This document shows, one piece after another, positions 24,101-59,079 of a stretch of DNA of 64,000 bases; positions within the stretch are counted from its first letter, which is position 1; the number at the start of each line of letters is the position of its first letter. The translations under genes were made by a program, and so were the position numbers. Location: contig CP069300.1 of assembly GCA_016839165.1 (NCBI GenBank), positions 2,356,001 through 2,420,000 of the forward strand, read 5' to 3'. Under the pieces are notes generated by a model that saw nothing but the letters and a program-made list of their open reading frames with translations, was not told the DNA's origin and made no database searches. Source of the stretch: Bradyrhizobium sp. PSBB068. Its GTDB lineage: Bacteria > Pseudomonadota > Alphaproteobacteria > Rhizobiales > Xanthobacteraceae.

Positions 24101-24446
24101 TGCGCGATCGCTGACCGAGGAGATCGCGCGGGTGGTGCGGGCGCGCGCAGCCAATCCGGCATGGATCGCGGGGATGATGCGTCACGGCTTCCGCGGCGCT
24201 GCCGAAATATCCGCGACGCTGGAGCACATGGCGGCATTTGCGCATCTTGCCGGTGCGGTGCCGCCGCATCTGTTCGACCTGTATTACGACGCGACGATCG
24301 GCAATGACGAGGTTCGCGGCTTCATGGCGCGCGAGAATCCAGCCGCGCTGGCTGCGATCGAAACCTGCTTCACCCGGCTGCATGAAGCCTTGCTCTGGCA
24401 AACGCGGCGCAACTCGATTGCGGCTGCGCTGCAGGAGGCCTCATGA
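21198..24446 (+). CDS. cobN: CobN, cobaltochelatase large subunit
   Basis: CobN is the substrate-binding subunit of the aerobic ATP-dependent cobaltochelatase CobNST, acting on hydrogenobyrinate a,c-diamide. Its 1082 residues are shorter than the roughly 1270 of Pseudomonas denitrificans CobN. Family segments seen include HIGAHGTLEWLPGKSVALS, YPFIVNDPGEAAQAKRR, and VVDLWGSSTMRTAGEDFAMA in the magnesium/cobalt chelatase H-subunit fold. cobS and cobT are not in this window. One-base overlap with cobW; 4-bp overlap with cobG. Confidence 0.95.
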   Translation: MHVVFRESRGLEETATPRDLGQDPADLVVLSFSDSDLAAFAAGWRRGRAALPSLRLANLAELRHPLSVDTYIERTLSHARGILVRLIGGEPYWSYGLSAVHRLARERGIALVVLPADGRDDLRLDEFSTLPVSTLRRLKVLCDKGGPVAAQAVIAQLALASGLYAGPVVGEIDLPEIGVYDPRRGAVAVLPAPDGRPRALVTFYRSYLAAGDTAPVDALIDALRERGFDAHGVFVTSLKAAGVADWLRVQLAQCPPAAIVNATAFSAAGNDGTTPFDAASCPMFQVALSTARREDWALSLRGLSPGDLAMHVVLPEVDGRLFAGVASFKSPGERDPDLQFAHLAHRPDAERVAAIVARVAAWHRLAGKPAQDKQLALVLSNYPGRPHQIAHAVGLDALASVQTLLADLAGAGFDVEAVELPGDALLRRKLTWDVNEYRAALSGIPLQLQDDLARAWGAPEDDPDCRDGAFHFAAIRCGKSVIAVQPERGDVSHRDADYHDLSRMPRHAYVAFHLWLRGQGIDAVVHIGAHGTLEWLPGKSVALSSACWPEALIGDLPVVYPFIVNDPGEAAQAKRRIGAVTIGHLPPPLGQAAVPESLRALERLLDEYSTADGLDPARRQRLIAAIREEARIAGLEDDLGLAASVSAAEAIPQIDRFVCDLKESQFGDGLHVFGQGACGEAEKAALLDALAGRRVAPGPSGSPYRGRSDVLPTGRNLFAVDPRAVPTPSAHAQGVKLAEELLRRHLQDHGDWPKGLVVDLWGSSTMRTAGEDFAMALHLAGIAPRWDHGSGRVTGYDIIALAELGRPRIDVTLRVSGLFRDVFAGLAQLFEAATEALSERSEEADENPYRQRIARVFGPRPGHYGAGIASIPDVFTAEAREAAGEAWLSASSWAIASDGQIRPDRAAIEARLAAADSFVHTQDLPETDLLLAADYAAHEAGIAAAARRLGTSIPSLYHLDATRPDQPHARSLTEEIARVVRARAANPAWIAGMMRHGFRGAAEISATLEHMAAFAHLAGAVPPHLFDLYYDATIGNDEVRGFMARENPAALAAIETCFTRLHEALLWQTRRNSIAAALQEAS

Positions 24447-32050: not shown

Positions 32051-32775
32051 GCGGTTTCGTCTCCTTCGTCTCGGCCGGTCCCGGCGATCCCGACCTCCTG
32101 ACCATGAAGGGGGCCGCGCGGCTGCGCGAGGCCGACGTCGTGCTCTATGACGACCTCGCCTCGGGTGCGATCCTCGATCTCGCGCGCTCCGGCGCCAATC
32201 TCGTCGCGGTCGGCAAGCGCGCCGGCCGGCTGTCGGCGCGGCAACACCATGTCAGCCGGTTGCTGGTCGACTATGCCGCGGCCGGTGTGCGGGTGGTGCG
32301 GCTGAAATCCGGCGACGCCGGCATCTTCGGCCGGCTCGAGGAGGAGATCGAGGCGCTGCGCGCCGCCGGCATCGGCTACGAGATCATCCCGGGCGTGACC
32401 TCCGCGTCGGTCGCCGCGGCGCGGGCCGGCATCCCGCTGACGCGGCGGTTGACCTCGCGCCGGGTGCAGTTCGTAACCGGCGCCGATGTCACCGGCGGAT
32501 TGCCCACGGATTTGAACTGGGCGGCGCTGGCCGACCCGGAAGCGACCACGGTCGTCTATATGGGGCGGCGCACGTTTCCGGCGCTGGCCGCAAAATTGAT
32601 CGCGCAGGGTCTCGCGCCTGACACGCCCGCATTGTTGGCGGAGTCGCTCGGTCAGGCCGATGAGCGGCTTGTCCGCACCACGATCGCAGCGCTGGCCGAA
32701 CGTCTCACCGATGTGGGCGCTGCCACCGCGGCTGCCGTCATTCTGTTCGGTGCGCTGGCGCCGGAGCAAGGGTGA
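32047..32775 (+). CDS. cobA: CobA, uroporphyrinogen-III C-methyltransferase
   Basis: This SAM-dependent enzyme converts uroporphyrinogen III to precorrin-2, the entry step of the pathway. The 242 residues show SAGPGDPDLLTMKGAARL, VLYDDLASGAILDLA, RLKSGDAGIFGRLEEEIEAL and PLTRRLTSRRVQFVTGAD. There is no CysG oxidase/chelatase extension, so it is a SUMT of the CobA type. The start is GTG overlapping the cobB stop. Confidence 0.95.
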   Translation: MSGFVSFVSAGPGDPDLLTMKGAARLREADVVLYDDLASGAILDLARSGANLVAVGKRAGRLSARQHHVSRLLVDYAAAGVRVVRLKSGDAGIFGRLEEEIEALRAAGIGYEIIPGVTSASVAAARAGIPLTRRLTSRRVQFVTGADVTGGLPTDLNWAALADPEATTVVYMGRRTFPALAAKLIAQGLAPDTPALLAESLGQADERLVRTTIAALAERLTDVGAATAAAVILFGALAPEQG

Positions 32776-32782
32776 CGCGGCC

Positions 32783-33529
32783 ATGTTGACGTTTTCGCTG
32801 ATTGGTATCGGTTGTGGCGATCCCCGACAGCTCACGCTCGCTGCAACAGCCGCGATCAATGCCGCCGATCTGATCCTGATCCCGCGCAAGGGCACGGCGA
32901 AGTCCGATCTCGCCGGCTTGCGCAGGACGATTTGCGCGCAGGCACTGAGTAATACCCGCACCCGGATTGCCGAGTTCGACCTGCCGGTGCGGGACGCCGG
33001 CGAGGAAGATTATCGCAGGGGCGTCGACGATTGGCATGATGCGATCGCTGCGACCTGGTCGCTGGAGATCGCACGCCATCTCGGCGGCGAGGGGCGCGTC
33101 GCCCTGTTGATCTGGGGCGATCCTTCGCTTTACGACTCGAGCCTGCGGATTGCGCGACGGCTTGATCCGCTGCCTGACATCGCGGTGATCCCGGGCATCA
33201 CGTCGATCCAGGCGCTGTGCGCGGCGCATGCGCTGCCGCTCAACGAGATCGGCGAGCCGTTCGTGGTCACGACGGGGCGCCGGCTTCGTGAGGGTGGTTG
33301 GCCGGCTGGCGTTGACACTGTGGTCGTGATGCTCGACGGTGGCACGGCTTTCGAGACGCTGGATCCTGCGGGCCTGAAGATCTGGTGGGGTGCCTATCTC
33401 GGCATGCCTGATCAGATCATCATGGCAGGGGAGCTCGCGGAGACCGGTCCTCGCATCGTCGCCGCGCGGCGGAAGGCGCGTGCGCAGCACGGCTGGATCA
33501 TGGACTGTTATGTCTTGAAGCGATCGTGA
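32783..33529 (+). CDS. cobF: CobF, precorrin-6A synthase (deacetylating)
   Basis: CobF methylates C-1 and releases acetate to give precorrin-6A. The 248 residues have IGIGCGDPRQLTLAA, LILIPRKGTAKSDLAGLRR, LIWGDPSLYDSSLRIA and the C-terminal WWGAYLGMPDQIIMAGEL, typical of CobF. It is the last gene of the rightward cob operon, 7 bp after cobA. CobF occurs only in the aerobic route, which confirms the pathway type together with CobG. Confidence 0.94.
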   Translation: MLTFSLIGIGCGDPRQLTLAATAAINAADLILIPRKGTAKSDLAGLRRTICAQALSNTRTRIAEFDLPVRDAGEEDYRRGVDDWHDAIAATWSLEIARHLGGEGRVALLIWGDPSLYDSSLRIARRLDPLPDIAVIPGITSIQALCAAHALPLNEIGEPFVVTTGRRLREGGWPAGVDTVVVMLDGGTAFETLDPAGLKIWWGAYLGMPDQIIMAGELAETGPRIVAARRKARAQHGWIMDCYVLKRS

Positions 33530-33561: not shown

Positions 33562-33597
33562 GGGTCTCAGGTCTTCAATGGGTCTCAGGTCTTCAAC
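33562..33597. repeat. Tandem 18-bp duplication
   Basis: GGGTCTCAGGTCTTCAAT (33562-33579) is followed directly by GGGTCTCAGGTCTTCAAC (33580-33597), with one difference. It covers the stop codon of the leftward zinc-ribbon gene and its downstream flank, so it is a recent local duplication. Confidence 0.85.
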
Positions 33598-33776
33598 CCG
33601 CGAATGGACGGCTGGATGGTGAGGCGATAGGCAACGAGCCTGTCGCCATCGAACTGCTCGAGCGTCGTTTCGCAAACCGGGCAGCGATACTCACCCCTGT
33701 CGCCCGATCTGGAGACCAGCTCAAGGCGCCGGAATCCGGCCCCGCAGCGTGGACACGTGACGTCGTCCTTCTTCAT
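33585..33776 (-). CDS. Small zinc-ribbon protein
   Basis: This frame encodes 63 residues with two CxxC knuckles: CPRC at Cys8/Cys11 and CPVC at Cys32/Cys35, which would bind one zinc. The middle (LELVSRSGDRGEYRCPVCE) reads like small rhizobial zinc-ribbon proteins of unknown role. The start ATG 33776 is supported by GGTGG upstream. It lies in the gap between the cob operon and the signalling genes. I see no clear function. Confidence 0.65.
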   Translation of the reverse strand: MKKDDVTCPRCGAGFRRLELVSRSGDRGEYRCPVCETTLEQFDGDRLVAYRLTIQPSIRGLKT

Positions 33777-34074
33777 CAAGCCACCCCAGAACAACACCGG
33801 CGGTATTTTGTAACCCAGACCGCGCGGCGGAACTATGGTCATGGCCGGAGGGCTGCGGACCATTCGTGCATGGGAACAAACGATGCGCCCGCACCGAGCC
33901 GGAGACGCCGCAGCCGACCGCGCCGAACGGGTCGTCCAGTTCGACGCATTCCGGTGATCCGGCAATGGGTTATGGCTCGACCTTGAGAGGGGCCGTCTGC
34001 GATCGGAATTGCGCACCCATCATGGCTGCCGCGTTGCCGCATCGGGGAGCTGTGACGCCGCGGCGGCCGCAGGG
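33777..34074. other. Non-coding gap, nothing identified
   Basis: About 300 bases separate the zinc-ribbon gene from the response-regulator stop codon. I found no convincing gene, terminator or repeat here; short reading frames on both strands look random. Confidence 0.4.
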
Positions 34075-35001
34075 TCAGGACTTGCGATGCCTGGCGTTGA
34101 CTGCGATCGCCGCGGCGGCGGTGCGGTTCTCGACCCCGAGCTTGGCGTAGATTTGCTCCAGGTGCTTGTCGACGGTGCGTGGGCTAAGGCCCAGGATCTG
34201 CGCGATGTCGCGGTTGGTCTTGCCCTTGGAGAGCCAGGACAGCACCTCGCCCTCGCGGGTGGTGAGGCCGAGCTCGCTGGAGAATTCCGCGGGCATGTCG
34301 CCGCTGGTGTCTTTTGCCAACCGCAGCAGGAATTCGTTGGGCCCGAGCTTGCCCATGTATTGCAGCCGAAGCTGCTCGTTGCCGGGGAAGGACGCCACGG
34401 TCGCGGTCTTCTTTCCAGCCGTACCTTTTTGCGCCTGTTCGATCCATTGCGGCATCGGATCCGGCAAGACGAAATCATCGGCGGCATCGGCGAGCGTATC
34501 CGACAGCAGTTTCTGGGCCTGCGGCGTCGCCCATAGCAGCGCGCCGGCGTTGTTGACCGCGAGCAGATAGCGACCGGAGACATCGAGCGCGGCGCGGGCG
34601 CTTTGCGTCATCCGCGCGTTGGCGAGATGGACCCGAATGCGCGCCAGCATCTCCTCGATCACGATCGGCTTGGTGACGTAGTCGACGCCACCGGCCTCCA
34701 GTCCGTGCACGATGTGCTCGGTCTCGGCCAGGCCCGTCATGAAGATGATCGGGACGCCGTCGAGCCCGGCATCGCGCTTCAGCCGCCGGCAGGTCTCGAA
34801 GCCGTCCATGCCCGGCATCACGGCATCGAGCAGTACGATATCGGGCGTGATCTGGTCGACGATGCGCATTGCGGAGGCGCCGTCGAGCGCGACCATCACG
34901 GTCATGCCGGCGCTGTCGAGCGCGTCGGTGAGCAGGCGCAATGTCTCCGGCGAGTCGTCGACGACGAGCGCGACGTCGCGCTTTCTCTGTTCAGTGGTCA
35001 T
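34075..35001 (-). CDS. Response regulator, REC + LuxR-type HTH
   Basis: This transcription regulator has 308 residues. The receiver domain (about 10-130) carries the acidic pair in VVDDS, the phospho-acceptor Asp59 in IVLLDAVMPGMDG and the conserved Lys in YVTKPI. A middle region (about 140-225, GRYLLAVNNAGALLWAT) looks PAS-like. The C-terminal LuxR-type helix-turn-helix is LTTREGEVLSWLSKGKTNRDIAQILGLSPRTVDKHLEQIYAKLGV, shown here only to locate it at about 240-295. It overlaps the kinase gene by 11 bp, so the two form a pair. The likely target is the divergent amide transporter operon. Confidence 0.93.
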   Translation of the reverse strand: MTTEQRKRDVALVVDDSPETLRLLTDALDSAGMTVMVALDGASAMRIVDQITPDIVLLDAVMPGMDGFETCRRLKRDAGLDGVPIIFMTGLAETEHIVHGLEAGGVDYVTKPIVIEEMLARIRVHLANARMTQSARAALDVSGRYLLAVNNAGALLWATPQAQKLLSDTLADAADDFVLPDPMPQWIEQAQKGTAGKKTATVASFPGNEQLRLQYMGKLGPNEFLLRLAKDTSGDMPAEFSSELGLTTREGEVLSWLSKGKTNRDIAQILGLSPRTVDKHLEQIYAKLGVENRTAAAAIAVNARHRKS

Positions 35002-38000
35002 AGCTGTGCAATATCTTCAACGTCGCCATATATTGATCGAGATCGAACCGGTCGACCAGCGTACGCATCTGTTCGACGAAGTCAGCGTGCTCGGGACACT
35101 CGTTGCCGATCTCGTCGAGCTTGAGCTGGATCGCCCTGACATAGCCGAGCTGGCCGAGGCTGATCAGCTCTTCGACATATTTGACCGGCGGGCGCGAACC
35201 ACTCTCGGGCTTCCATTGCGGCGGCGGTGCCTGCTCGGCCTCGTACTGCCACTCGATCTTGAGCAGTTGGCGGATGGTCTCGAGCAGCCGCGGGATGTCG
35301 ATCGGCTTCATCAGATAGCCGTCGTGGAACGGTTGCGCCAGCGGCGCGCCATGGGCTTCCAATGCGCTCGCCGAGATCATCAGGATGCGGGCCTGGTGAT
35401 GGCCTTCGGAGCGCAAGGTTTCGGCGACCGTCCAGCCGTCCATGCCCGCCATCGAGATGTCGAGCAGGAACATGTCCGGCCGGCAATGCTGGGCGAGGGC
35501 AAGGCAGCCGGGCCCGTCCGGCGCGCTGAGCAGGATGAAGCCGAGCGGCGCCAGGATCTCGCGCAGGAGGTCGCGCTGGGTCGGGTCATCGTCGGTGATC
35601 AGGATGGTCTTGCGCGGGCCGTGATAGCCGTAGACGGGTGCATCGACCGGCGCGTCGCGGCGCGGGTTGGTGACCTCGGACAGCAGCAGCTTGACCTTGA
35701 AGGTGCTGCCGGTGCCGACCGTGCTCAAGACCTTGATGTCGCCCCCCATCACGCCGGCGAGCAGGCGGCTGATGGTCAGGCCGAGCCCGGTGCCGGTCTG
35801 CGGCTGGGTGACGCCGAGCGCGCCGCGCTCGAACGGCGCGAAGATCCGCTCGAGGTCGTCGGGCTGGATGCCCGGCCCGGTGTCGATCACCTCGAACTCG
35901 GCGACCGGGCTACGGTAGTGCACCACGAACTGCACCCGACCGGATTGGGTGAACTTGATTGCATTGGATAGCAGGTTGATCAGGATCTGCCGCAGCCGCT
36001 TCTCGTCGGCATAGACCACGACGGGCAGCACGGCCGGCCGCTTGAACACGAAGTCGATGCCTTTTGCCGCAGCTTGCAGGCGGAACATGCCGACCAGCTG
36101 TTCGAGGAAATCGTTCAGCCGCACCTCGTCGCGCGACAGATAGAGCCGGCCGGCCTCGATCTTGGAGATGTCGAGGATGCCGTCGATCAATCCCGACAGA
36201 TGATCAGCGCTGCGGCGGACCACGCGCACCTGCTCGCGCGGCCGCACCTGCAGACTGTCGTCCTGCTCCAGCAGCTGCGCGTAGCCGGAGATCGCATTCA
36301 GCGGCGAGCGAAGCTCGTGGCTGAGGCCCACGACATAGCGGCTCTTGGCGAGATTGGCCGATTCCGCCACTTCCTTGGCGCGCTGCAGCTCGGCGTCGGT
36401 ACGCTTGTGGGCGTCGATTTCCTGGATCAGCAGCGTGGTCTGTCGCCGGGTTTCGGCTTCCGCGGCGCGCCGGCTCTGCTGCGCCAGCACAAACAGCCAG
36501 GCGACGACACCGATGATGATGGTCAGTGCAAAGAACACCTTCCACAGCACGTCGGCCAGCAATTCATTGGCATGCACGGCTGCTGTCGTTTGCAGGTAGA
36601 TCAGGCCGAGCACCAGCGCGACGAGGCCGGCCGAGACCGCGAACACGCCGAGGTAATGTCCGAGTTGCGAGTTGAGGCGGGCGTAGATCGGCTGCGGCAT
36701 CACCTTGCCCAGCGCGTCCGAGACTTGCGCACCGATCCGGCCGTGCGGCTTGCAGAGATCGTGGCAGCGCGCGTCGAGCGAGCAGCACAGGGAACAGATC
36801 GGGCCGGCATAGGCCGGGCAGGCGGCCATGTCCTCGGGCTCGAAGGCATGCTCGCAGATACAGCACTGGATCGATTCAAGGTTCTGCCAGCTCCGCTTCG
36901 GCTTGCGCGCGATGTAGTACTTGCCGTCGGTCGCCCAGGCAATCAGCGGGGCCGTGATGAAGGCGACCGCGAGCGCGACGAAGGCGGACAGCGCCTTCGC
37001 GGTTGGACCGAACAGGCCGTAGAACGCGCTGATCGAGATGACGGTTGCGATCGCCATCGCGCCGACACCGACCGGATTGATGTCGCAGAGATGGGCGCGC
37101 TTGAATTCGATGTGCTGTGGGCGAAGGCCGAGCGGCTTGTTGATGACGAGGTCGGCCACCAGCGCGCCGACCCAGGCGATCGCGACATTGGAGTAGAGCG
37201 CCAGCGTCTGCTCCAGCGCCTTGTAGACGCCGATCTCCATCAACAGCAGCGCGACCACGACGTTGAAGACCAGCCACACCACGCGACCGGGATGCGAGTG
37301 GGTGAGACGGGAGAAGAAGTTCGACCAGGCGATCGAGCCGGCATAGGCATTGGTGACGTTGATCTTGACCTGCGACAGGATCACGAACGTGCCTGTCAGC
37401 GCCATCGCGAGATCCGGCTGCGACAGCACGTAACGGAAAGCTTCGAGATACATGTTCGCCGGCTCGGCGGCATGCTCGGCCGACACGCCGTGGCTGAGCG
37501 CGAAGAAGGCCAGGAACGAGCCGGCCAGCAGCTTCAGCGCGCCGAGCACGATCCAGCCGGGGCCGGCGCCGAGCAGCGCGATCCACCAGGCCTTGCGCGA
37601 GGTGCGGCGGTCGCGCGGCAGGAAGCGCAGGAAGTCGACCTGCTCGCCGATCTGCGCCACCAGCGCGAACACGACGGAGGCCGCGGTGCCGAACAGCAGA
37701 AGGTCGAGATTGCCCGCGGGATCGCCGTGCTCGCCGGCGAATTTGCGCCACTCGGTGAAGGAATGCGGATTGGCCCAGGCGATCGCCGCGAACGGCATGA
37801 TGTGGAGGATGATCCACAGCGGCTGGGTCCAGAGCTGGAACCGGCTGATCAGCGTGATGCCGTAGATGACAAGCGGAATGATCACGACCGCGCTGATCAG
37901 GTAGCCGATCGGCCGCGGAATGCCGAAGCACATATCGAGCGCGCTGGCCAGGATCACCGCCTCGATCGCGAAGAAGATGAAGGTGAAGGAGGCGTAGATC

Positions 38001-38380
38001 AGCGAGGTGATGGTCGAGCCGATATAGCCGAAGCCGGCCCCGCGGGTCAGGAGGTCGATGTCGATGCCGCTCTTCGCGGCATGGTAGGCGATCGGCAGCC
38101 CGCACAGGAAGATGATGACGCTGACGACCAGGATCGCGGCGGAGGCGTTCATCGCGCCATAGTTCAGCGTGATGGTGCCGCCGATCGCCTCCAGCGCCAG
38201 GAAGGAGATCGCGCCGAGCGCGGTGTTGGCGACGCGCGCGGCGGACCAGCGCCGCGCGCTCTTGGCCGTGAAGCGCAGCGCGTAGTCTTCCAGCGTCTGG
38301 TTGGCGACCCATTGATTGTATTGGCGCCTGACGCGGTCTATCCGCTGCCGCCCTGCCACTCGCTCAAACTCCTGGTCCAC
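34991..38380 (-). CDS. Hybrid histidine kinase fused to an NCS1 nucleobase-transporter domain
   Basis: This membrane sensor has 1129 residues. Residues about 30-490 form an NCS1 (cytosine/purine/allantoin) permease-like domain with about twelve hydrophobic segments (GYIGSTITSLIYASFTFIFF). A Cys-rich segment at 506-543 holds nine cysteines (CCIC, CPAY, CSLCC, CHDLC) and may bind zinc or an Fe-S cluster. Two more membrane helices follow (577-597, 613-633), then the dimerisation domain with His688 in SHELRSPLN, an ATPase domain (about 790-900, NLLSNAIKF, DTGPGIQ, GTGLGL) and a receiver (about 925-1040, Asp974). The C-terminal 90 residues may be a phosphotransfer or linker region. It probably senses a nitrogenous solute or its flux and controls the divergent fmd-type operon. 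Confidence 0.93.
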   Translation of the reverse strand: MDQEFERVAGRQRIDRVRRQYNQWVANQTLEDYALRFTAKSARRWSAARVANTALGAISFLALEAIGGTITLNYGAMNASAAILVVSVIIFLCGLPIAYHAAKSGIDIDLLTRGAGFGYIGSTITSLIYASFTFIFFAIEAVILASALDMCFGIPRPIGYLISAVVIIPLVIYGITLISRFQLWTQPLWIILHIMPFAAIAWANPHSFTEWRKFAGEHGDPAGNLDLLLFGTAASVVFALVAQIGEQVDFLRFLPRDRRTSRKAWWIALLGAGPGWIVLGALKLLAGSFLAFFALSHGVSAEHAAEPANMYLEAFRYVLSQPDLAMALTGTFVILSQVKINVTNAYAGSIAWSNFFSRLTHSHPGRVVWLVFNVVVALLLMEIGVYKALEQTLALYSNVAIAWVGALVADLVINKPLGLRPQHIEFKRAHLCDINPVGVGAMAIATVISISAFYGLFGPTAKALSAFVALAVAFITAPLIAWATDGKYYIARKPKRSWQNLESIQCCICEHAFEPEDMAACPAYAGPICSLCCSLDARCHDLCKPHGRIGAQVSDALGKVMPQPIYARLNSQLGHYLGVFAVSAGLVALVLGLIYLQTTAAVHANELLADVLWKVFFALTIIIGVVAWLFVLAQQSRRAAEAETRRQTTLLIQEIDAHKRTDAELQRAKEVAESANLAKSRYVVGLSHELRSPLNAISGYAQLLEQDDSLQVRPREQVRVVRRSADHLSGLIDGILDISKIEAGRLYLSRDEVRLNDFLEQLVGMFRLQAAAKGIDFVFKRPAVLPVVVYADEKRLRQILINLLSNAIKFTQSGRVQFVVHYRSPVAEFEVIDTGPGIQPDDLERIFAPFERGALGVTQPQTGTGLGLTISRLLAGVMGGDIKVLSTVGTGSTFKVKLLLSEVTNPRRDAPVDAPVYGYHGPRKTILITDDDPTQRDLLREILAPLGFILLSAPDGPGCLALAQHCRPDMFLLDISMAGMDGWTVAETLRSEGHHQARILMISASALEAHGAPLAQPFHDGYLMKPIDIPRLLETIRQLLKIEWQYEAEQAPPPQWKPESGSRPPVKYVEELISLGQLGYVRAIQLKLDEIGNECPEHADFVEQMRTLVDRFDLDQYMATLKILHSYDH

Positions 38381-38430
38381 GATGCGCTGATCGCGGGCAA
38401 ATCCCGTACCAAAAACCTACGTCGCTATTT

Positions 38431-38471
38431 TGCGGTGCAGTATACGCGATCTCACGTATCAGTGCGCCGCA
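38431..38471. promoter_or_regulatory. Large operator-like dyad between kinase and amide operon
   Basis: The core arms ATACG (38442-38446) and CGTAT (38455-38459) are flanked by TGCGG (38431-38435) and CCGCA (38467-38471), all centred near 38451. T-rich and A-rich ends (TTTT before, AAAA after) extend the symmetry imperfectly. It lies in the 148-bp divergent gap and is the best candidate site for the LuxR-type regulator encoded at 34075. Confidence 0.5.
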
Positions 38472-38528
38472 CAAAAGTAAGCAATCCTCGCCTCATCAAT
38501 AAGCGTTCTCGAACCAGATGGGGTGCTC

Positions 38529-39791
38529 ATGTCAGACGAAACAAAACCAGGACTGCAGTCTCCGCTCCGCCGCAAGCTCTTGATGGGAATGGCGGCATTG
38601 CCGGCCATGTCGATGCTGGGCCGTCCGGCCTTTGCCGACGTTCCTGCAACTTCCGCGGTCAACACCACCGGTCTTGCAGTCACTAATAGCGAAGTCACGG
38701 TCGGCATCCTGCACTCCGTCACCGGCACCATGGCGATCTCCGAGACCGGCTCGGTCGAGGCCGAGAAGCTCGCGATCGAGCAGATCAACGCCGCCGGCGG
38801 CGTGCTCGGGCGCAAGATCAAGTTCATCCAGGAGGACGGCGCGAGCGACTGGCCGACCTTCGCGGAAAAGGCGAAAAAGCTCCTGGTCAACGACAAATGC
38901 GCCGCCGTGATGGGCTGCTGGACCTCGGCCTCGCGCAAGGCGGTGCTGCCGGTGTTCGAGCAGTACAACGGCATGCTGTACTACCCGACCTTCTACGAAG
39001 GCCTCGAGCAGTCCAAGAACGTGATCTACACCGGCCAGGAGGCGACGCAGCAGATCATCGCCGGCCTCGACTGGGTCAACAAGACCAAGGGCGCCAAGAG
39101 CTTCTACCTGCTCGGCTCGGACTACATCTGGCCGCGCACCTCGAACAAGATCGCGCGCAAGCACATCGAAAACCACCTGCAGGGCTGCAAGGTGGTCGGC
39201 GAGGAATACTTCCCGCTCGGCTCGACCCAGTTCAACTCGGTCATCAACAAGATCAAGCTGACCAAGCCGGACGTGATCTACGCCATCATCGTCGGCGGCT
39301 CCAACGTCGCGTTCTACAAGCAGCTCAAGGCGGCCGGCATCGACCTGTCGAAGCAGACGCTGCTGACCATCTCGGTCACCGAGGACGAGATCGACGGCAT
39401 CGGCGGCGAGAACATCGCGGGCGCCTATGCCTGCATGAAGTATTTCCAGTCGCTCGACAATCCGAACAACAAGGCCTTCGTGCCGGCGTTCAAGAAGATG
39501 TGGGGCGAGAAGACCGTGATCGGCGACGTCACCCAGGCTGCCTATCTCGGCCCGTGGCTGTGGAAACTGACGGTGGAGAAGGCGGGCTCCTTCGACATCG
39601 ACAAGATCGCGGCGGCTTCCCCCGGCGTCGAGTTCAAGGGTGCGCCGGAAGGTTATGTGCGGATTCACGAGAACCATCACCTCTGGTCGAAGACCCGCGT
39701 CGGCCGCGCCAAGGCCGATGGCCAGTATGAGCTGATCTACGAGACCGCCGATCTCGTCGAGCCGGATCCATTCCCCAAGGGCTACCAGTGA
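38529..39791 (+). CDS. Urea/amide-type ABC transporter substrate-binding protein (UrtA/FmdD-like)
   Basis: This periplasmic binding protein belongs to the UrtA/AmiC group of type I periplasmic proteins. The 420 residues carry a signal with RRKLLMGMAALPAM and a cleavage near RPAFA; the two arginines suggest possible Tat export. The family pattern is clear: VGILHSVTGTMAISETGSVE, WTSASRKAVLPVFEQYNGML, YYPTFYEGLEQSKNVIYTG. GTG 38523 is an alternative start. The four transporter genes and formamidase follow, so formamide or a short amide is the likely ligand, with urea the alternative. Confidence 0.88.
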   Translation: MSDETKPGLQSPLRRKLLMGMAALPAMSMLGRPAFADVPATSAVNTTGLAVTNSEVTVGILHSVTGTMAISETGSVEAEKLAIEQINAAGGVLGRKIKFIQEDGASDWPTFAEKAKKLLVNDKCAAVMGCWTSASRKAVLPVFEQYNGMLYYPTFYEGLEQSKNVIYTGQEATQQIIAGLDWVNKTKGAKSFYLLGSDYIWPRTSNKIARKHIENHLQGCKVVGEEYFPLGSTQFNSVINKIKLTKPDVIYAIIVGGSNVAFYKQLKAAGIDLSKQTLLTISVTEDEIDGIGGENIAGAYACMKYFQSLDNPNNKAFVPAFKKMWGEKTVIGDVTQAAYLGPWLWKLTVEKAGSFDIDKIAAASPGVEFKGAPEGYVRIHENHHLWSKTRVGRAKADGQYELIYETADLVEPDPFPKGYQ

Positions 39792-39908: not shown

Positions 39909-40835
39909 ATGTTCGGCGACTATTCGATCAGTGATCTCGGCGCCATCCTTGCGATGCAGGGATTTGCCGGGCTCATCCTGTTCTCCGTCTACGTGCTGAT
40001 GGCACTCGGGCTTGCCATCATCTTCGGCCAGATGGGCGTCATCAACATGGCGCACGGCGAGTTCATGATCCTGGGGGCCTACGTCACCTGGATGACCTCG
40101 AACGCGGTGCAGCACGCCGCGCCCTGGCTGTTCCCCGGCTACTTCTTCATCGCGATGATCCTGGCGTTCATCGCCTCCGGCGCGCTCGGCATGCTGGTGG
40201 AGTGGGCGCTGATCCGCCATCTCTACAAACGTCCGCTCGATACGCTGCTGGCGACCTGGGGCCTCAGCCTGATCCTGCAGCAGGCCTACCGCTCGATCTT
40301 CGGCGCACGCGAAGTCGGCGTCGAGCTGCCGGAATGGATGATGGGCTCCTGGCAGGCTACCGACTCCATCCAGATCCCGATCAACGGCATGTTCGTGATG
40401 GCGCTGACCATCCTGATCACGATCGCGGTCTCCTACGTGCTGTTCTGGTCGAACTGGGGCAAGCAGGTGCGCGCCGTGGTGCAGAACCGCGTGATGGCAG
40501 GCGCCGTCGGCATCAATACCGAGAAGGTCGATCGTTACACCTTTGGTCTTGGCTGCGGCATCGCCGGGATCGCCGGCTCAGCCTTCACCATGATCGGCTC
40601 GACCGGGCCAACCGCCGGCCAGCTCTACATCGTCGACACCTTCCTGGTCGTCGTGTTCGGCGGCGCCGCCTCGCTGTTCGGCACCATCGCCTCCGCCTTC
40701 TCGATCTCGCAGACCCAATCGACGCTGGAATTCTTCCTGTCGGGTTCGATGGCCAAGGTGATCACGCTGTTGACCATCGTCGCGATCCTGATGGTGCGTC
40801 CGCAGGGGCTGTTCGCGCTCAAGGTCCGCAAATAA
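39909..40835 (+). CDS. Urea/amide-type ABC transporter permease 1 (UrtB/FmdE-like)
   Basis: This inner-membrane permease of the LivH/UrtB family has 308 residues and about eight to nine hydrophobic segments. Characteristic segments are MGVINMAHGEFMILGAYVTW and TLLATWGLSLILQQAYRSIFG, and the short cytoplasmic loop GKQVRAVVQNRVMAGAVGIN. TGGAGG lies 8 bases before the ATG. The partner permease begins 17 bp after its stop. Confidence 0.9.
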   Translation: MFGDYSISDLGAILAMQGFAGLILFSVYVLMALGLAIIFGQMGVINMAHGEFMILGAYVTWMTSNAVQHAAPWLFPGYFFIAMILAFIASGALGMLVEWALIRHLYKRPLDTLLATWGLSLILQQAYRSIFGAREVGVELPEWMMGSWQATDSIQIPINGMFVMALTILITIAVSYVLFWSNWGKQVRAVVQNRVMAGAVGINTEKVDRYTFGLGCGIAGIAGSAFTMIGSTGPTAGQLYIVDTFLVVVFGGAASLFGTIASAFSISQTQSTLEFFLSGSMAKVITLLTIVAILMVRPQGLFALKVRK

Positions 40836-40852: not shown

Positions 40853-41986
40853 ATGATCAACTCGCGCTTTTTCAATCGCTCCGAACTGCTCGGCTTCCTG
40901 GCGCTCGCGGTGCTGCTGTTTCTGATCCTGCCGCTGTCGCTGGACATCTTCCGCCTCAATCTGGTCGCCAAATATTTGACCTACGCCTTCGTCGGCATCG
41001 GCCTCGTGCTGTGCTGGGGCTATGGCGGCATCCTGAGCCTGGGGCAGGGCGTGTTCTTCGGCCTCGGCGGCTACTGCATGGCGATGTACCTCAAGCTCGA
41101 GGCATCCTCGGTCGCGAACACCAAGATCCAGTCGACGCCGGGCATCCCGGACTTCATGGACTGGAACCAGCTCACCTCGCTGCCCTTCTTCTGGAAGCCG
41201 TTCCACAGCTTCCCGATAACGCTGCTGGCGATCCTGCTGGTTCCCGCGTTCTTCGCGCTGATCATCGGCGCTGCGATGTTCAAGCGCCGGGTCGGCGGCG
41301 TCTATTTCGCGATCATCACGCAGGCGATCGCCGCGATCCTCACCATCCTGATCGTGGGGCAGCAGGGCTACACCGGCGGCATCAACGGCATCACCGATTT
41401 GCGCACGCTGCACGGCTGGGACATCCGCACCGATCACGCCAAGTTCATTCTGTATTTCGTCGAGGTTGTGCTGCTGTTCGGATGCATCGTCGCCGCGCAA
41501 TTCATCCGGCTGACAAAACTCGGGCGCATCCTGGTGGCGATGCGGGAGCAGGAGGACCGTGTGCGCTTCTCCGGTTATAGCGTCGCCAACTTCAAGATCT
41601 TCGCGTTCTGTGCCGCGGCGGTGTTCGCTGCGATCGGCGGCGCCATGTTCACGCTCGAGGTCGGCTTCATGTCGCCGTCCTTCGTCGGCATCGTGCCGTC
41701 GATCGAGATGGTGATCTACACCGCGGTCGGTGGCCGGATGTCGATCTTCGGCGCGGTCTGGGGTGCACTCTTGGTCAATTTCGCCAAGACCAGTCTCTCG
41801 GAATCCTTCCCGCAGCTCTGGCTGTTCGGCCTCGGCGCGCTGTTCATCGCGGTCGTGCTGGCGTTCCCGAACGGGCTCTCCGGCATCTGGGCGGACCACA
41901 TCCAGCCCCGCATCGATCGCCTTTTGTCATCACGCAAATCGAAATCGGCGGCCGGCATGATCGCCGACGGCGCACCGGCCGAGTGA
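40853..41986 (+). CDS. Urea/amide-type ABC transporter permease 2 (UrtC/FmdF-like)
   Basis: This inner-membrane permease of the LivM/UrtC family has 377 residues and about ten hydrophobic segments. Recognisable parts are CWGYGGILSLGQGVFFGLGG, GQQGYTGGINGITDL and VAMREQEDRVRFSGYSVANF. The last 25 residues are a variable polar tail. ATG 40853 begins at MINSRFFNRSELLGF; upstream in-frame sequence belongs to the preceding gene. The ATPase gene follows after 12 bp with GAGGAGGG as ribosome binding site. Confidence 0.9.
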   Translation: MINSRFFNRSELLGFLALAVLLFLILPLSLDIFRLNLVAKYLTYAFVGIGLVLCWGYGGILSLGQGVFFGLGGYCMAMYLKLEASSVANTKIQSTPGIPDFMDWNQLTSLPFFWKPFHSFPITLLAILLVPAFFALIIGAAMFKRRVGGVYFAIITQAIAAILTILIVGQQGYTGGINGITDLRTLHGWDIRTDHAKFILYFVEVVLLFGCIVAAQFIRLTKLGRILVAMREQEDRVRFSGYSVANFKIFAFCAAAVFAAIGGAMFTLEVGFMSPSFVGIVPSIEMVIYTAVGGRMSIFGAVWGALLVNFAKTSLSESFPQLWLFGLGALFIAVVLAFPNGLSGIWADHIQPRIDRLLSSRKSKSAAGMIADGAPAE

Positions 41987-41998: not shown

Positions 41999-42754
41999 AT
42001 GCTCGTCGGCCATCAGCCCAAAGACTTCCTGCTCGCGGTTTCCGGTCTCACCGTGTCCTTTGACGGCTTCAAGGCGGTGAACGATCTCTCCTTCTATGTC
42101 GAGGAGAACGAGATCCGCGTCATCATCGGCCCGAACGGTGCCGGCAAGACCACGGTGCTCGACCTGATCTGCGGCAAGACCCGTGCCACGTCAGGCTCGA
42201 TCCAGTTCCGCGGCCAGGAGCTGACCAAGCTGCGCGAGAACGAGATCGTGCAGGCGGGGGTGGGTCGCAAGTTCCAGACGCCGTCGGTGTTCGAGGATCT
42301 GACGGTTTTCGAGAACCTCGAGATTTCCTTTCCGCGCGGCCGCACCGTGTTCGGCTCGCTGACCTTCCAGCGTGACGACACCGTCAAGCAGCGGGTCGAG
42401 GAGGTCGCCGAGATGATCTTCCTCAAGGATCGCCTCGACACCTATGCCGACCAGCTCAGCCACGGCCAGAAGCAGTGGCTGGAGATCGGCATGCTGCTGA
42501 TCCAGGATCCGGACCTCCTGATGCTCGACGAGCCGGTGGCGGGGATGAGCGTGTCCGAGCGCGCCAAGACCGCAGAACTGCTCAACCGCATCATCAAGGA
42601 CCGCTCGGTGCTGGTGATCGAGCACGACATGAAGTTCGTCGAGGACATCGCGCACAAGGTCACGGTGCTGCACCAGGGCCAGATCCTGTCCGAGGGGACC
42701 ATGGAGCACGTCAAGAACGATCCCAAGGTGATCGAAGTGTATCTGGGGCATTGA
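41999..42754 (+). CDS. Urea/amide-type ABC transporter ATPase 1 (UrtD-like)
   Basis: This LivG/UrtD-class cytoplasmic ATPase has 251 residues. Walker A GPNGAGKTT is near 44-52, the signature LSHGQKQWLEIGMLL (SHGQ in place of SGGQ, as in UrtD) and Walker B LLMLDEPVAGMS follow, and the switch His is in VIEHDMKFV. It is the fourth gene of the operon. A REP-like hairpin separates it from the second ATPase gene. Confidence 0.92.
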   Translation: MLVGHQPKDFLLAVSGLTVSFDGFKAVNDLSFYVEENEIRVIIGPNGAGKTTVLDLICGKTRATSGSIQFRGQELTKLRENEIVQAGVGRKFQTPSVFEDLTVFENLEISFPRGRTVFGSLTFQRDDTVKQRVEEVAEMIFLKDRLDTYADQLSHGQKQWLEIGMLLIQDPDLLMLDEPVAGMSVSERAKTAELLNRIIKDRSVLVIEHDMKFVEDIAHKVTVLHQGQILSEGTMEHVKNDPKVIEVYLGH

Positions 42755-42848: not shown

Positions 42849-43538
42849 ATGCTGGCAATCAATGATCTTCACGTCGCCTACGGCCAGAGCGAGGTGCTGC
42901 ACGGCCTCAACGTCAAGGTCGCGGCCAACGAGATCGTCGCGATCATGGGCCGCAACGGCATGGGCAAGACCACGCTGATGAAATCGCTGATGGGCATCTT
43001 GCCGGCCAAGAGCGGCAAGGTGACCATGGACGGCACCGAGCTCGGCGCGATGAAGAGCTACGAGCGGGTGGCGAAGGGGCTCGCCTACGTGCCGCAGGGC
43101 CGGATGATCTTCTCCACCATGACGGTGAAGGAGAACATCGAGACCGGCCTTGTGGTGTCAGGCGACTCCGAGGTGCCCGGCGACATCTACGAGCTGTTCC
43201 CCGTGCTGCTGGAGATGAAGGGCCGCCGCGGCGGCAATCTCTCCGGCGGACAACAGCAGCAGCTCGCGATCGCCCGCGCGCTGGCGACCAGGCCAAAAGT
43301 GCTGCTGCTCGACGAGCCGACCGAAGGCATTCAGCCGTCGATCATCAAGGACATGGCGCGCACCCTGAAACGGATCCGCGACGAGCGGGGGCTGTCGATC
43401 GTGGTCTCCGAGCAGGTGCTGAGCTTCGCGCTCGACATCGCCGACCGCGTGCTCGTCATCGAGAACGGCGAGATCGTCCGCGACGATCCGCGCGCTGGCG
43501 TCGATGCCGCGCAGATCTCAAAATATCTGTCTGTGTAA
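42849..43538 (+). CDS. Urea/amide-type ABC transporter ATPase 2 (UrtE-like)
   Basis: This LivF/UrtE-class ATPase has 229 residues. Walker A GRNGMGKTT is near 34-42, followed by AYVPQGRMIFSTMTVKENI, NLSGGQQQQLAIARALA and LLLDEPTEGIQPSII. The EGIQP text after Walker B is typical of UrtE proteins. Formamidase fmdA follows after 32 bp. Confidence 0.92.
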   Translation: MLAINDLHVAYGQSEVLHGLNVKVAANEIVAIMGRNGMGKTTLMKSLMGILPAKSGKVTMDGTELGAMKSYERVAKGLAYVPQGRMIFSTMTVKENIETGLVVSGDSEVPGDIYELFPVLLEMKGRRGGNLSGGQQQQLAIARALATRPKVLLLDEPTEGIQPSIIKDMARTLKRIRDERGLSIVVSEQVLSFALDIADRVLVIENGEIVRDDPRAGVDAAQISKYLSV

Positions 43539-43570: not shown

Positions 43571-44800
43571 ATGCCAGATACACTGATCAAGGTCGATCTC
43601 AGCAAGTCGGCCTATGAAAACGACAAGATCCACAACCGCTGGCATCCCGAGGTTCCGATCGTCGAGTGGGTCAGCCCCGGCGACGACTTCATCATCGAGA
43701 CCGTCGACTGGACCGGCGGCTTCATCAAGAACAACGACTCGGCCGACGACGTGCGCGACATCGATCTGTCGATCGTGCACTTCCTGTCCGGCCCGATCGG
43801 CGTCAAGGGCGCCGAGCCGGGTGACCTCCTGGTCGTCGATCTGCTCGACGTCGGTCCGTTGAAGGAGAGCCTGTGGGGTTTCAACGGCTTCTTCTCCAAG
43901 CAGAACGGCGGCGGCTTCCTCACCGACCATTTCCCGCTGGCGCAGAAGTCGATCTGGGACATCAAGGGCCTCTACACCTCGTCGCGCCATGTTCCCGGCG
44001 TCAACTTCGCCGGCCTGATCCATCCCGGCCTGATCGGCTGTCTGCCCGATGCCAAGATGCTGGCGGCGTGGAATGCGCGCGAAGCCGAGCTGATCGCGAC
44101 CAACCCGACCCGCGTGCCGGGCCTCGCCAATCCGCCGTTCGCGCCGACCGCGCATGCCGGCCAGGCCAAGGGCGACGTCAAGGCCAAGATCGGCCTCGAG
44201 GGTGCCCGCACCGTGCCGCCGCGCGAGCACGGCGGCAATTGCGACATCAAGGACCTGTCGCGCGGCTCGAAGATCTATTTCCCGGTCTATGTGCCGGGCG
44301 GCGGGCTCTCGATGGGCGATCTGCATTTCAGCCAGGGCGACGGCGAGATCACCTTCTGCGGCGCCATCGAGATGGCCGGCTGGCTGCACATCAAGGTCGA
44401 CCTGATCAAGGACGGCGTGTCGAAATACGGCATCAAGAATCCGGTATTCAAGCCGTCGCCGATCACGCCAAACTACAAGGACTACCTGATCTTCGAGGGC
44501 ATCTCGGTCGACGAGGCCGGCAAGCAGCATTACCTCGACGTCCACATCGCCTATCGCCAGGCCTGCCTGAACGCGATCGAATACCTGAAGAAGTTCGGTT
44601 ACTCCGGCGCCCAGGCCTATTCGATCCTCGGCACCGCGCCGTGCCAGGGCCACATCTCCGGCGTGGTCGACGTGCCCAATGCCTGCGCCACGCTATGGCT
44701 GCCGACGGAGATCTTCGACTTCGACATCATGCCGTCGTCGGCAGGACCGATCAAACACATCAAGGGCGACATCCAGATGCCGATCTCGCAAGACAAGTAA
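43571..44800 (+). CDS. fmdA: Formamidase (FmdA)
   Basis: This enzyme hydrolyses formamide, and more slowly other short amides, to the acid and ammonia. It belongs to the acetamidase/formamidase family, which is unrelated to AmiE. The 409 residues match the length of Methylophilus FmdA and carry KVDLSKSAYENDKIHNRWHP, GPIGVKGAEPGDLLVVDLL, NGGGFLTDHFP, VPPREHGGNCDIKDLSRGS and SMGDLHFSQGDGEITFCGAI. No signal peptide. It ends the transporter operon at its position of use, pointing to formamide as imported substrate. Confidence 0.94.
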   Translation: MPDTLIKVDLSKSAYENDKIHNRWHPEVPIVEWVSPGDDFIIETVDWTGGFIKNNDSADDVRDIDLSIVHFLSGPIGVKGAEPGDLLVVDLLDVGPLKESLWGFNGFFSKQNGGGFLTDHFPLAQKSIWDIKGLYTSSRHVPGVNFAGLIHPGLIGCLPDAKMLAAWNAREAELIATNPTRVPGLANPPFAPTAHAGQAKGDVKAKIGLEGARTVPPREHGGNCDIKDLSRGSKIYFPVYVPGGGLSMGDLHFSQGDGEITFCGAIEMAGWLHIKVDLIKDGVSKYGIKNPVFKPSPITPNYKDYLIFEGISVDEAGKQHYLDVHIAYRQACLNAIEYLKKFGYSGAQAYSILGTAPCQGHISGVVDVPNACATLWLPTEIFDFDIMPSSAGPIKHIKGDIQMPISQDK

Positions 44801-44888
44801 TCCCTGCGCGAAGGGTGCGGGACGGCTGCGTATAGGCCGCCCCGCATCCATCGCCGGATGTCACACGACTGCGCAAGGATTTACGGAA

Positions 44889-45242
44889 ATGCCGATCTAC
44901 GAATATCTCTGCAATGACTGCGGCCCGTTCACCGATATGCGGCCGATGGCAGAATGCGACCTGCCGCAGGACTGTCCGCAATGCGAGACGACGTCGCCGC
45001 GCGTGATCCTGACCGCACCGGCGTTCTTCTGCATGCCGTCGGACAAGCGCAAGGCATACGCCACCAACGAGCAGAGCCGGCACGCGCCGAAGACGCTCGA
45101 CCAGTACAAGGCCGCGCACGGCCCGGGCTGCGGCTGCTGCTCGTCGTCGTCCGGAAAGAAGAAGCCGGCGCGGCTGATGACCAAGACCAAGAGCGGCGCC
45201 AAGGGGTTTCCGACCGCGCGGCCCTGGATGATCAGCCACTGA
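44889..45242 (+). CDS. fmdB: FmdB family zinc-ribbon protein
   Basis: This small protein is proposed to regulate formamidase in Methylophilus, where fmdB lies beside fmdA. The 117 residues start with the family text MPIYEYLCNDCGPFTDM; the zinc ligands are Cys8, Cys11, Cys29 and Cys32. A second Cys cluster (GPGCGCCSSSSGKKK) lies near residue 80, and the tail is basic. It is 88 bp downstream of fmdA on the same strand and is convergent with the next ABC operon. Confidence 0.88.
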   Translation: MPIYEYLCNDCGPFTDMRPMAECDLPQDCPQCETTSPRVILTAPAFFCMPSDKRKAYATNEQSRHAPKTLDQYKAAHGPGCGCCSSSSGKKKPARLMTKTKSGAKGFPTARPWMISH

Positions 45243-47880: not shown

Positions 47881-48624
47881 TCAGCCTCCCTTGAAACGCG
47901 CGACCAGGCGGTGCGTCTCGCCGGGATAATGCAGCCGCACCGCCGTCACCGTGCGTGCGCTGCGCCAGGTGTAGCGGTCGATCACGAGGCAGGGCGCGCC
48001 GACCGCGATGGCGAGGGCCTTTGCCGTGCGGTCGTCGGCAACCACTGCGCTGATCGTATGTTCTGCCTCGGTCCACGGCACGTGGTGCAGCAGCCATGAT
48101 CCCGGCGGCTCGCGCGCAAAATCCGCGTTGGCAGCTTCGGGAACCGTGGAGAGATCGATCAGCCTGTCCTCGACGGCGAACGGCACATCGTCGGCGCTGT
48201 GCCGGCAGGCGATCGCGATCACCTTGCCGGCGGTGCCGACGCCGAGCCGGGCGCGATCGGCCGATGTCGCGGTGCGCCGCCGGCAATCGATCAGCTGATA
48301 GCCGTAAGCGCGGCCGAGCGCGGTGATCTCGGCTCTGATGTCGGCGATCTTGAGCACTGCGGACATATGCTGCGGACGGCGCACGAATGAGCCGGCGCGC
48401 CGCCGCCGCTCGATCAGGTCGGCCTGCGCCAGTTCCGACAGCGCCTTGTTCACGGTCATGCGCGAGCAGCGGTAGCGCGCCATCAACTGGTGCTCGAACG
48501 GAATGCGGTGACCGGGCGGCCACTCGCCGGTCAGGATCCGTGTCTCGATGTCGAGCCGGATTCGCTTGTAGAGTGTCGGCTTGCCGGCTGCATTGGGTTT
48601 GGCCCGATCGGAAGCGAGGCTCAT
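47881..48624 (-). CDS. hutC: HutC, GntR-family repressor of histidine utilisation
   Basis: This repressor of hut genes is induced by urocanate. Its 247 residues have an N-terminal GntR winged helix (IRLDIETRILTGEWPPGHRI, YRCSRMTVNKALSELAQADL) and a C-terminal UTRA effector domain (LLHHVPWTEAEHTISAV, YTWRSARTVTAVRLHYPGE). The family text fits HutC. The ATG overlaps the hutF stop by 4 bp. It should bind the palindrome at 50014-50033. Confidence 0.93.
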   Translation of the reverse strand: MSLASDRAKPNAAGKPTLYKRIRLDIETRILTGEWPPGHRIPFEHQLMARYRCSRMTVNKALSELAQADLIERRRRAGSFVRRPQHMSAVLKIADIRAEITALGRAYGYQLIDCRRRTATSADRARLGVGTAGKVIAIACRHSADDVPFAVEDRLIDLSTVPEAANADFAREPPGSWLLHHVPWTEAEHTISAVVADDRTAKALAIAVGAPCLVIDRYTWRSARTVTAVRLHYPGETHRLVARFKGG

Positions 48625-49979: not shown

Positions 49980-50013
49980 TTTTCCATGCCGGCTGGACAG
50001 AACCGGGACACGA

Positions 50014-50033
50014 TTATATGTCTAGACATATAA
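50014..50033. promoter_or_regulatory. HutC operator (perfect 20-bp palindrome)
   Basis: TTATATGTCTAGACATATAA is a perfect palindrome between the divergent hutF-hutC and hutI-hutH-hutU units. Its TGT...ACA form fits GntR/HutC-type sites. One bound dimer could silence both directions. No other palindrome in the gap compares with it. Confidence 0.85.
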
Positions 50034-50064
50034 GTCAAGCATCCCAGCTCGAGGGGACGATCGC

Positions 50065-52835: not shown

Positions 52836-52853
52836 CCGACAAGGGCATCCGTC

Positions 52854-54521: not shown

Positions 54522-54894
54522 CGGGACTTGATGGATCGGGAGTCGCTCGGTGTTCGGCCGCATCTCCTGATTGGGGTTCGCAGGTTAGCGAGATATCTCC
54601 TTGCAGCCCTCAACCTTCCGGTTGATGGACGCGAGGTGACCGGCTGGACATGCCTTGACACGCGAGATCGGCGGTGCAGCTACCGGAGATAGTTGGTCCA
54701 CGGACTGCTGCATCTGTGATCGGCCGCTGATTTTCGATTTGCCTGCTTTCGCGTCAGCGTCGCTGACAGGATGAGCTGCGAGGGTCCTTGTCTCGCGGCA
54801 GATGACATGCAATCTTCCGCTCCCGGCAATGCTGTTCGAGAGCAACAAGAACAATAATCCCTCTCGTCCCTCCAATTCTGTCGAGGGCCTGATC
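54522..54894 (+). promoter_or_regulatory. Gap upstream of amiC; weak promoter candidates only
   Basis: These 373 bases hold a small stem CAACC/GGTTG near 54610 and a TTGACA at 54655-54660 without a good -10. There is also a TGG-N9-TGC pair (54694-54708) with the spacing of a sigma-54 site but poor match otherwise. An A-rich stretch precedes the GAGGG of amiC. I see no gene here. Confidence 0.3.
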
Positions 54895-56687: not shown

Positions 56688-56740
56688 GCCCCAATAGCGG
56701 GGCCGGCGGCGACAGCGCCGCCTTCGACACAACCGGCAAC
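56688..56740 (+). ncRNA. Predicted AmiR target: tandem hexaloop hairpins
   Basis: Hairpin 1 is GCCCC-AATAGC-GGGGC (56688-56703). Hairpin 2 is GGCGGC-GACAGC-GCCGCC (56705-56722), whose loop may close by one more pair. Both loops share the pattern xAxAGC and the hairpins are one base apart, just ahead of an intrinsic terminator. Two small hexaloop hairpins before a terminator is the layout known for ANTAR targets, although the published loop consensus (A first, G fourth) fits only with a one-base shift. Confidence 0.6.
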
Positions 56741-56793
56741 AAAGCCCTCCCAATGCTCGCGTCAGCGCGCATCGGGAGGGCTTTTTGTTTTTT
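56741..56793 (+). terminator. Intrinsic terminator in the amidase-operon leader
   Basis: AAAGCCCTCCC (56741-56751) pairs with GGGAGGGCTTT (56774-56784), with a further stem inside, and is followed by TTTTTGTTTTTT (56782-56793). It lies between amiR and the next gene, 21 bp before ATG 56815. It is the strongest terminator in the window and the natural point of AmiR control. Confidence 0.9.
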
Positions 56794-56814
56794 CAATCCT
56801 GAAGGGAGCTAGGG

Positions 56815-58065: not shown

Positions 58066-58081
58066 CGACGGGAGCTGACGA

Positions 58082-59063: not shown

Positions 59064-59079
59064 GACAGATCGCTGATTC

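Follow-up and report, generated by a model that had tools for sequence, protein, structure and literature searches.

A hybrid histidine kinase with an NCS1-type transporter as its sensor domain and its probable link to urea and amide genes

The kinase and its transporter-like sensor domain

The DNA analysed here is a stretch of 64,000 nucleotides from Bradyrhizobium sp. PSBB068 (contig CP069300.1, positions 2,356,001 to 2,420,000), referred to below as the window. On its reverse strand, at 34991..38380, lies a gene for a hybrid sensor histidine kinase whose N-terminal part is a full NCS1-type transporter. Positions are given in window coordinates and residue numbers are those of the window kinase. 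The protein has 1129 residues as called; the start is probably at 38359, which gives 1122 residues. The transporter domain (residues 30-487; 36920..38293) is followed by a segment with nine Cys (506-543; 36752..36865) and by two further helices that run into the kinase (572-661; 36398..36667). These are followed by the HisKA (679-744, with His688; 36149..36346), HATPase_c (792-900; 35681..36007) and receiver domains (926-1037, with Asp974; 35270..35605), all matched and with their catalytic residues in place. A preliminary description of the locus had proposed this order of parts, and the domain matches and a structural model confirm it. A domain-library scan of the kinase found no match to Hpt or PAS domains. 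The gene of a LuxR/NarL-type response regulator (34075..35001, reverse strand, receiver Asp59) lies directly downstream and overlaps the kinase gene by 11 bases.

In the model the sensor domain has a LeuT-type fold of 12 transmembrane helices (TM) with a broken TM1, and CodB and Mhp1 are its top structural matches. By our own reading of the model the kinase has these 12 carrier helices plus two, while a simple hydropathy scan gives 12 TM in all for the window kinase and 14 for its Acinetobacter baumannii relative (locus L018), one of them inside the kinase part. Pfam and NCBIfam scans of the sensor made no NCS1 call. The NCS1 family PF02133 did not match the kinase at an E-value of 1e-3 or the sensor part at 10, and sequence searches of the PDB (phmmer and profile) with the sensor or its free-standing relatives retrieved no structure of an NCS1 protein. 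The NCS1 assignment is therefore based on comparison of profiles and folds. A profile comparison with NCS1 carriers (hhalign) gave a probability of 98.3% and an E-value of 1.1e-14. The sensor is also 42.8% identical to a free-standing carrier of Klebsiella (L178), which passes the PF02133 cut-off of 23.5 bits with 37.7 bits; a second free-standing relative passes with 27.1 bits, and the free-standing carriers of L018, L021 and L179 do not reach the cut-off. The proposal that an entire NCS1 transporter serves as the sensor of this kinase is thus upheld.

Mhp1 and CodB share fold and family with the sensor domain but are free-standing carriers, of hydantoins and cytosine according to their PDB names, whereas the sensor is fused to a kinase. 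In a two-step alignment W117 and Q121 of Mhp1, which we take to be substrate residues, align to F136 and E140 of the sensor.

Genes and a palindrome at the kinase loci

Divergent from the kinase, on the forward strand, are genes of a urea/amide ATP-binding cassette (ABC) transporter. They encode the binding protein UrtA (38523..39791, TIGR03407), the permeases UrtB (39909..40835, TIGR03409) and UrtC (40880..41986, TIGR03408, start inferred) and the ATPases UrtD (41999..42754, TIGR03411) and UrtE (42849..43538, TIGR03410). Behind them on the same strand are the formamidase gene fmdA (43571..44800, NF045496) and a gene for an FmdB-type zinc-ribbon protein (44877..45242, TIGR02605, start inferred). 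The urease alpha gene of this organism is located elsewhere in the genome.

Neighbouring genes were counted in the best 80 of 591 confirmed genome loci, several of which end at contig edges. A LuxR-type regulator directly follows the kinase in all 80. The urtA gene is upstream of the kinase on the opposite strand in 77 loci, which are all those that possess it, and in one case (L077) urease genes are found between the two. The other components were found in 72/80 (urtB), 70/80 (urtC), 69/80 (urtD) and 64/80 loci (urtE), fmdA in 46, fmdB in 45, and ureD or urease genes in 14. The 80 loci were also reduced to one per name group, 39 in all, without L049 and L074, where urt is lacking and the contig ends near the kinase. 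Counted this way, Urt is present in 38/39 groups (the exception is Azospirillum), Fmd in 23/39 and urease in 5/39.

Plasmid loci of the kinase add arrangements with urt and fmdA, with urt alone, and with urt and urease. On a Mitsuaria plasmid a urease operon takes the place of urt beside the kinase. A Methylovirgula plasmid contains fmdAB, the kinase, the regulator, a free-standing carrier and an aliphatic amidase. Beside this carrier is an 87-residue match to urtA (56%; L179:8893-9153) with no further urt genes; it looks like the remnant of a urt operon, which the carrier may have replaced. What most loci have in common is that their genes serve to take up or hydrolyse urea, formamide or short amides. 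The claim that the kinase is a sensor of a small nitrogenous compound beside amide genes gains support from the 77 loci with a divergent urtA, and is most likely correct.

An inverted-repeat search of the intergenic regions between kinase and urtA uncovered one dominant family. Its window member is the palindrome TACGCGATCTCACGTA at 38443..38458, a candidate site for the response regulator. The exact core TACG-N8-CGTA was detected in 81/105 regions, which count the window locus three times (WIN, L004 and L127); in 50 dinucleotide shuffles, a control for the exact core, it occurred in 0.18 on average and in 2 at most. After dereplication (sensor identity below 78%) the exact core is present in 32/52 regions and at least 7 of its 8 bases in 43/52. 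The 37 exact sites give the consensus ATACGTCAWWTGACGTAT, in which 8 bases are fixed by the search. The window contains one copy where 0.09 would be expected, and the whole genome (7.67 Mb) has the form TACGY-N6-RCGTA at three places, of which the kinase/urtA locus is one. Since the palindrome is conserved and associated with the kinase, the regulator is probably tied to the divergent operon and is predicted to bind this site. A scan of 38200-38700 for sigma-70-like promoters found none.

The palindrome was also detected beyond the urt loci. In A. baumannii and in genome G812 it sits between a free-standing carrier and the kinase, and the Methylovirgula locus has two copies, one of them upstream of the amidase gene. 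None of the nine free-standing carrier loci whose retrieved stretch lacks a kinase has it anywhere.

Several other features of the window surround this region. A small open reading frame after the regulator (33585-34016, reverse strand) has a C-terminal part that reads as zinc-ribbon-like (CPRC...CPVC). The cobalamin genes cobN and cobF (21198-24446 and 32660-33529) adjoin the amide region. A second cluster of the amide type occupies 54802-62724 and continues to the window end, with a UrtA-like protein at 54802-56049, a further relative of UrtA, 46% identical to urtA, near 56.8-58.0 kb, UrtC at 59080-60219, an aliphatic amidase at 61687-62724 and, starting near 62.7 kb and running beyond the end of the window, an ordinary NCS1 carrier. 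The histidine utilisation genes hutF, hutI and hutU (48621-54521) adjoin it.

Free-standing relatives and the origin of the sensor

Among 190 genomes of the class of the window organism, its own included, 13 match, one of them with a more distant carrier at 23% identity. A free-standing carrier of the kinase-related NCS1 family matched 62 of 398 genomes of the phylum (E-value 0.001; weak matches to other carriers included), and in that list every match above 300 bits sits in an open frame of at least 894 residues, which is kinase-sized. Two of these frames (G267:C3 and G370:C2) have just 894 and 899 residues and are perhaps kinases without a receiver domain. In the class of G544, 16 of 274 sampled genomes match. 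The sensor matches 529 records of the plasmid collection, 342 of them from Klebsiella. The only Klebsiella-plasmid kinase stretch retrieved (L019) comes from a plasmid typed as conjugative and has urt and formamidase genes beside the kinase. A "urea transport system" is reported on pKPN-307 plasmids (PMC5506382) and may be the same block.

Phylogenies suggest that the fusion arose once. In a FastTree tree of 74 kinases, 12 carriers and 2 outgroups all kinases formed a single clade (0.963), with the carriers L152 (from G812, where kinase and carrier adjoin) and L179 as its sister. An IQ-TREE analysis of 27 kinases (26 of them drawn at random) and the 12 carriers, run without the fusion-specific columns and with the ten other carriers as root, gave the kinase clade a support of 100. 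The kinase frame of L059 is broken after 689 residues, and the in-frame part was used as is. The NCS1-kinase family is widespread and apparently has a single origin.

The 12 free-standing carrier loci are 11 stretches from the plasmid collection (flanks up to 10 kb) and L152 (1.5 kb); carriers of actinobacteria come from plasmid records only. The proteins are 41-54% identical to the sensor and, where named, are annotated as allantoin, cytosine or purine-cytosine permeases. Genes for urease, formamidase or amidase lie near 9 of the 12: urease in Acinetobacter ursingii, A. lwoffii, A. johnsonii and Klebsiella pneumoniae, formamidase in Moraxella, Tsukamurella, Methylovirgula and G812, and an aliphatic amidase in Arthrobacter U41. 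None of these genes was found near the carriers of Streptomyces, Arthrobacter StoSoilB13 and A. baumannii. The K. pneumoniae gene (L178:6953-8560), annotated as a cytosine permease, follows the urease genes and is a candidate urea permease. Their neighbourhoods suggest that the free-standing carriers transport urea or amides.

Many of these carriers also possess the Cys segment. Eight of its nine Cys are invariant in an alignment of 40 sequences. The carriers nearest the kinases (L152 and L179) have the full extended form, those of Acinetobacter, Moraxella, Klebsiella and Streptomyces a shorter C-terminal version (CxxC...CSLC), and in Arthrobacter and Tsukamurella the segment is largely lost. 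Because free-standing carriers of the same family have it, the segment was inherited with the carrier, and the suggestion that the Cys cluster is an added input was not borne out. The region is modelled as a small treble-clef-like unit with weak fold matches. For 2 of the 40 members the segment matches a Pfam family of the treble-clef type (best E-value 0.00055); that of the window kinase has no such match, and zinc-finger matches of the Cys region by itself were all weak. Metal binding by the segment is plausible. It is also conceivable that the true sensor is this cluster, responding to metal or redox state, or a cytoplasmic input, with the carrier domain as a mere membrane anchor. This is the least probable of the explanations considered, given that the cluster is common to free-standing carriers. 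In addition, the polar residues E140, Q243, E246, Q247, D249 and N344 are shared by kinases and carriers in at least 97% of 86 proteins, and such strong conservation speaks against a mere anchor, which would not need it. E140, as aligned above, corresponds to Q121 of Mhp1, presumably a substrate residue.

Other positions differ between kinases and carriers. There are 27 that separate the kinases from the ten other carriers, and at six of these (59, 60, 63, 141, 178 and 347) L152 and L179 side with the carriers. At positions 60, 63, 64 and 347 none of the 74 kinases has the residue of any of the 12 carriers, L152 and L179 included. The corresponding changes from carrier to kinase are Y60F, loss of D63, F/Q64E and S347A in all 74; A59S and G141A are found in nearly all, and the split at 178 is likewise almost complete. 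By our own helix boundaries five of the six fusion-specific positions are on TM1, TM3 or TM8, which in NCS1 carriers form the binding sites of ion and substrate. This pattern is suggestive of a retained binding site and an altered coupling site. The shared polar residues would also suit a domain that still works as a carrier and a sensor at once, so that the kinase would read the flux of urea or amides and not static binding. There is a parallel for it in CbrA, whose SSS part is reported to transport histidine (PMC7918813). We regard this explanation as rather unlikely in view of the residues lost from every kinase and their placement on the presumed ion- and substrate-binding helices.

Proposed function and comparison with known systems

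Since its relatives sit beside genes for uptake and breakdown of urea and formamide, the kinase most likely switches such genes on in the presence of small nitrogen compounds of this kind. Our preferred explanation, to which we give a probability of roughly two in three, is a transceptor-type hybrid kinase in which binding of urea or a short amide at the former NCS1 carrier leads to expression of urtABCDE-fmdAB through the regulator and the palindrome. A carrier for urea or short amides would have been retained in full, C-terminal Cys cluster included, and linked by the two extra helices to the kinase-receiver unit. The carrier site would bind urea, formamide or another small amide of this kind, and the resulting shift of the carrier's helices and of the two that link it to the kinase would change kinase activity. 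The phosphate would pass from His688 to Asp974 of the receiver and on to the regulator encoded directly downstream, with some Hpt step taking part in a complete relay. The regulator would then bind the palindrome (family consensus TACGTCAWWTGACGTA) between the divergent operons and turn on urtABCDE-fmdAB. Here we infer the ligand, the direction of the signal, the contact between regulator and palindrome, and the loss of transport. In the window organism, with its urease alpha gene elsewhere, the likeliest inducer is formamide or another short amide. Cytosine, allantoin and hydantoin, which the preliminary description had also listed as compounds to test, appear unlikely as ligands, since the genes conserved beside the kinase deal with urea, formamide or short amides.

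A probable member of the family with described phenotypes is AmsSR of A. baumannii (ABUW_2427/ABUW_2426), whose kinase is a hybrid that lacks Hpt and has 14 predicted TM and whose LuxR/NarL-type regulator is encoded immediately downstream (PMC10112286). The L018 kinase (L018:9950-13423) is 49.8% identical to the window kinase, its regulator gene overlaps it, and a catalase HPII gene is close by (252-2396), with seven open reading frames of at least 110 residues between catalase and kinase. AmsSR is described as the sole LuxR-type pair among 14 (PMC5382811) and katE is ABUW_2436 (PMC9802203), so that the locus tags would leave eight genes in between. Because the LuxR pair is unique, the regulator overlaps and katE is near, L018 is probably the amsSR locus and AmsS a member of the NCS1-kinase family. 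Both systems are hybrids with no Hpt match and with a LuxR-type regulator directly downstream; the A. baumannii locus differs in having a free-standing carrier, divergent beside the kinase, where the window locus has urt. A polar amino-acid-type ABC system lies downstream of it. Another A. baumannii kinase, a multi-TM hybrid of 1165 residues with 12 predicted TM, a PAS domain and a receiver (L182:1432-4929), was rejected as AmsS, as it has no regulator immediately downstream, whereas L018 has one and katE nearby. A LuxR-type regulator is found about 1.2 kb from it on the other strand, and it is perhaps of the CrbS type.

The amsSR promoter is induced by carbonyl cyanide m-chlorophenyl hydrazone (CCCP), and disruption of the pair causes membrane depolarisation and a drop in internal pH (PMC10112286). 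The sensor might accordingly read membrane energisation or internal pH through the ion site of the carrier, the amide genes being one output among several. However, induction of amsSR transcription by CCCP differs from activation of the kinase, the palindrome and the conserved neighbourhood speak for urea and amide genes in most of the family, and there are just three palindrome places in the genome of the window organism. We therefore consider this explanation improbable.

A urea or short-amide transceptor driving urt and fmd remains the most likely function on the sequence evidence, and several observations count against it. Besides CCCP induction, the AmsSR study reports wide changes in carbon metabolism, and the words "urea" and "nitrogen" are missing from its main text as available, as is "NCS1"; its authors speculate on quinone or redox sensing (PMC10112286). 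Neither the A. baumannii locus (L018, 22 kb) nor two Azospirillum loci (L086 and L203) have a match to Urt, Fmd, urease or amidase in the retrieved stretches. The exact palindrome core is missing from 24/105 intergenic regions. At 39 further kinase loci, where urtA is missing, less than 30% identical or more than 900 bp away, an exact palindrome is present within 700 bp upstream in just 7, among them A. baumannii, Methylovirgula and G812. The residue of the carriers is kept by 3/74 kinases at position 59, 1/74 at 141 and 2/74 at 178. Finally, the hypergeometric p-value for placement on TM1, TM3 and TM8 is 0.043, for fusion-specific residues that were found post hoc.

A broader scenario can be put forward tentatively, with odds below even. 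In it, the NCS1 branch annotated as allantoin/cytosine permeases would consist of urea and short-amide carriers and would have given rise to the kinase once. A few changes around the ion and substrate site on TM1, TM3 and TM8 would have produced a receptor that no longer transports and that acts, by way of a single palindrome conserved in alpha-, beta- and gammaproteobacteria, on ABC-type uptake of amides, on urease or on the sister carrier. With a widespread kinase, close free-standing relatives and a clear candidate site, the family offers a natural comparison for the change from carrier to receptor. The analysis also leads to a proposed inducer and regulator of the urt-fmd and urt-urease operons and to a new reading of AmsS, and for "allantoin/cytosine permeases" encoded next to urease it points to a likely class of substrate.

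Parts of the system have been described before. One study shows a hybrid kinase and a LuxR regulator next to a urt operon (PMC13296017), a urt-like cluster beside formamidase and amidase genes in Bradyrhizobium was suggested to move an amide other than urea (PMC3098086), and formamide was suggested as the substrate of a similar Pseudomonas cluster (PMC13209695). The fmdCABDEF genes of Methylophilus methylotrophus, like the window operon, combine formamidase with ABC uptake of short amides and urea, and are induced by formamide and urea (PMC10781810, citing others). The available text of that review contains neither "histidine kinase" nor "two-component", whereas the window operon has a kinase/regulator pair. 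No description of an NCS1-kinase fusion was found in the literature searched, which largely excludes subscription journals.

Transporter-kinase fusions with other carriers are known. The ammonium sensor kinase of Kuenenia also serves a nitrogen compound, with an Amt/Rh carrier instead of NCS1 (PMC5764959). The closest analogues are the CbrA-type kinases (PMC13022988, PMC7918813). In CbrA, CrbS/MxtR, RpuS and PrlS, as in the window kinase, a whole carrier, there of the SLC5/SSS type, is the N-terminal sensor; some of these kinases are hybrids, and PrlS is paired with a LuxR-type regulator. As the preliminary description had stated, the window kinase uses a different carrier family: it is NCS1 by profile and fold, and the sensor domain has no match to the Pfam family SSF of SSS carriers. 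In the place of the STAC and PAS domains of CbrA, the window kinase appears to have the Cys cluster and two helices, and its partner genes, unlike those of the SSS-type kinases, concern urea and amides. The described fusions that were found use SSS or Amt carriers, and the NCS1 version adds a further carrier family to the transporter-fused kinases.
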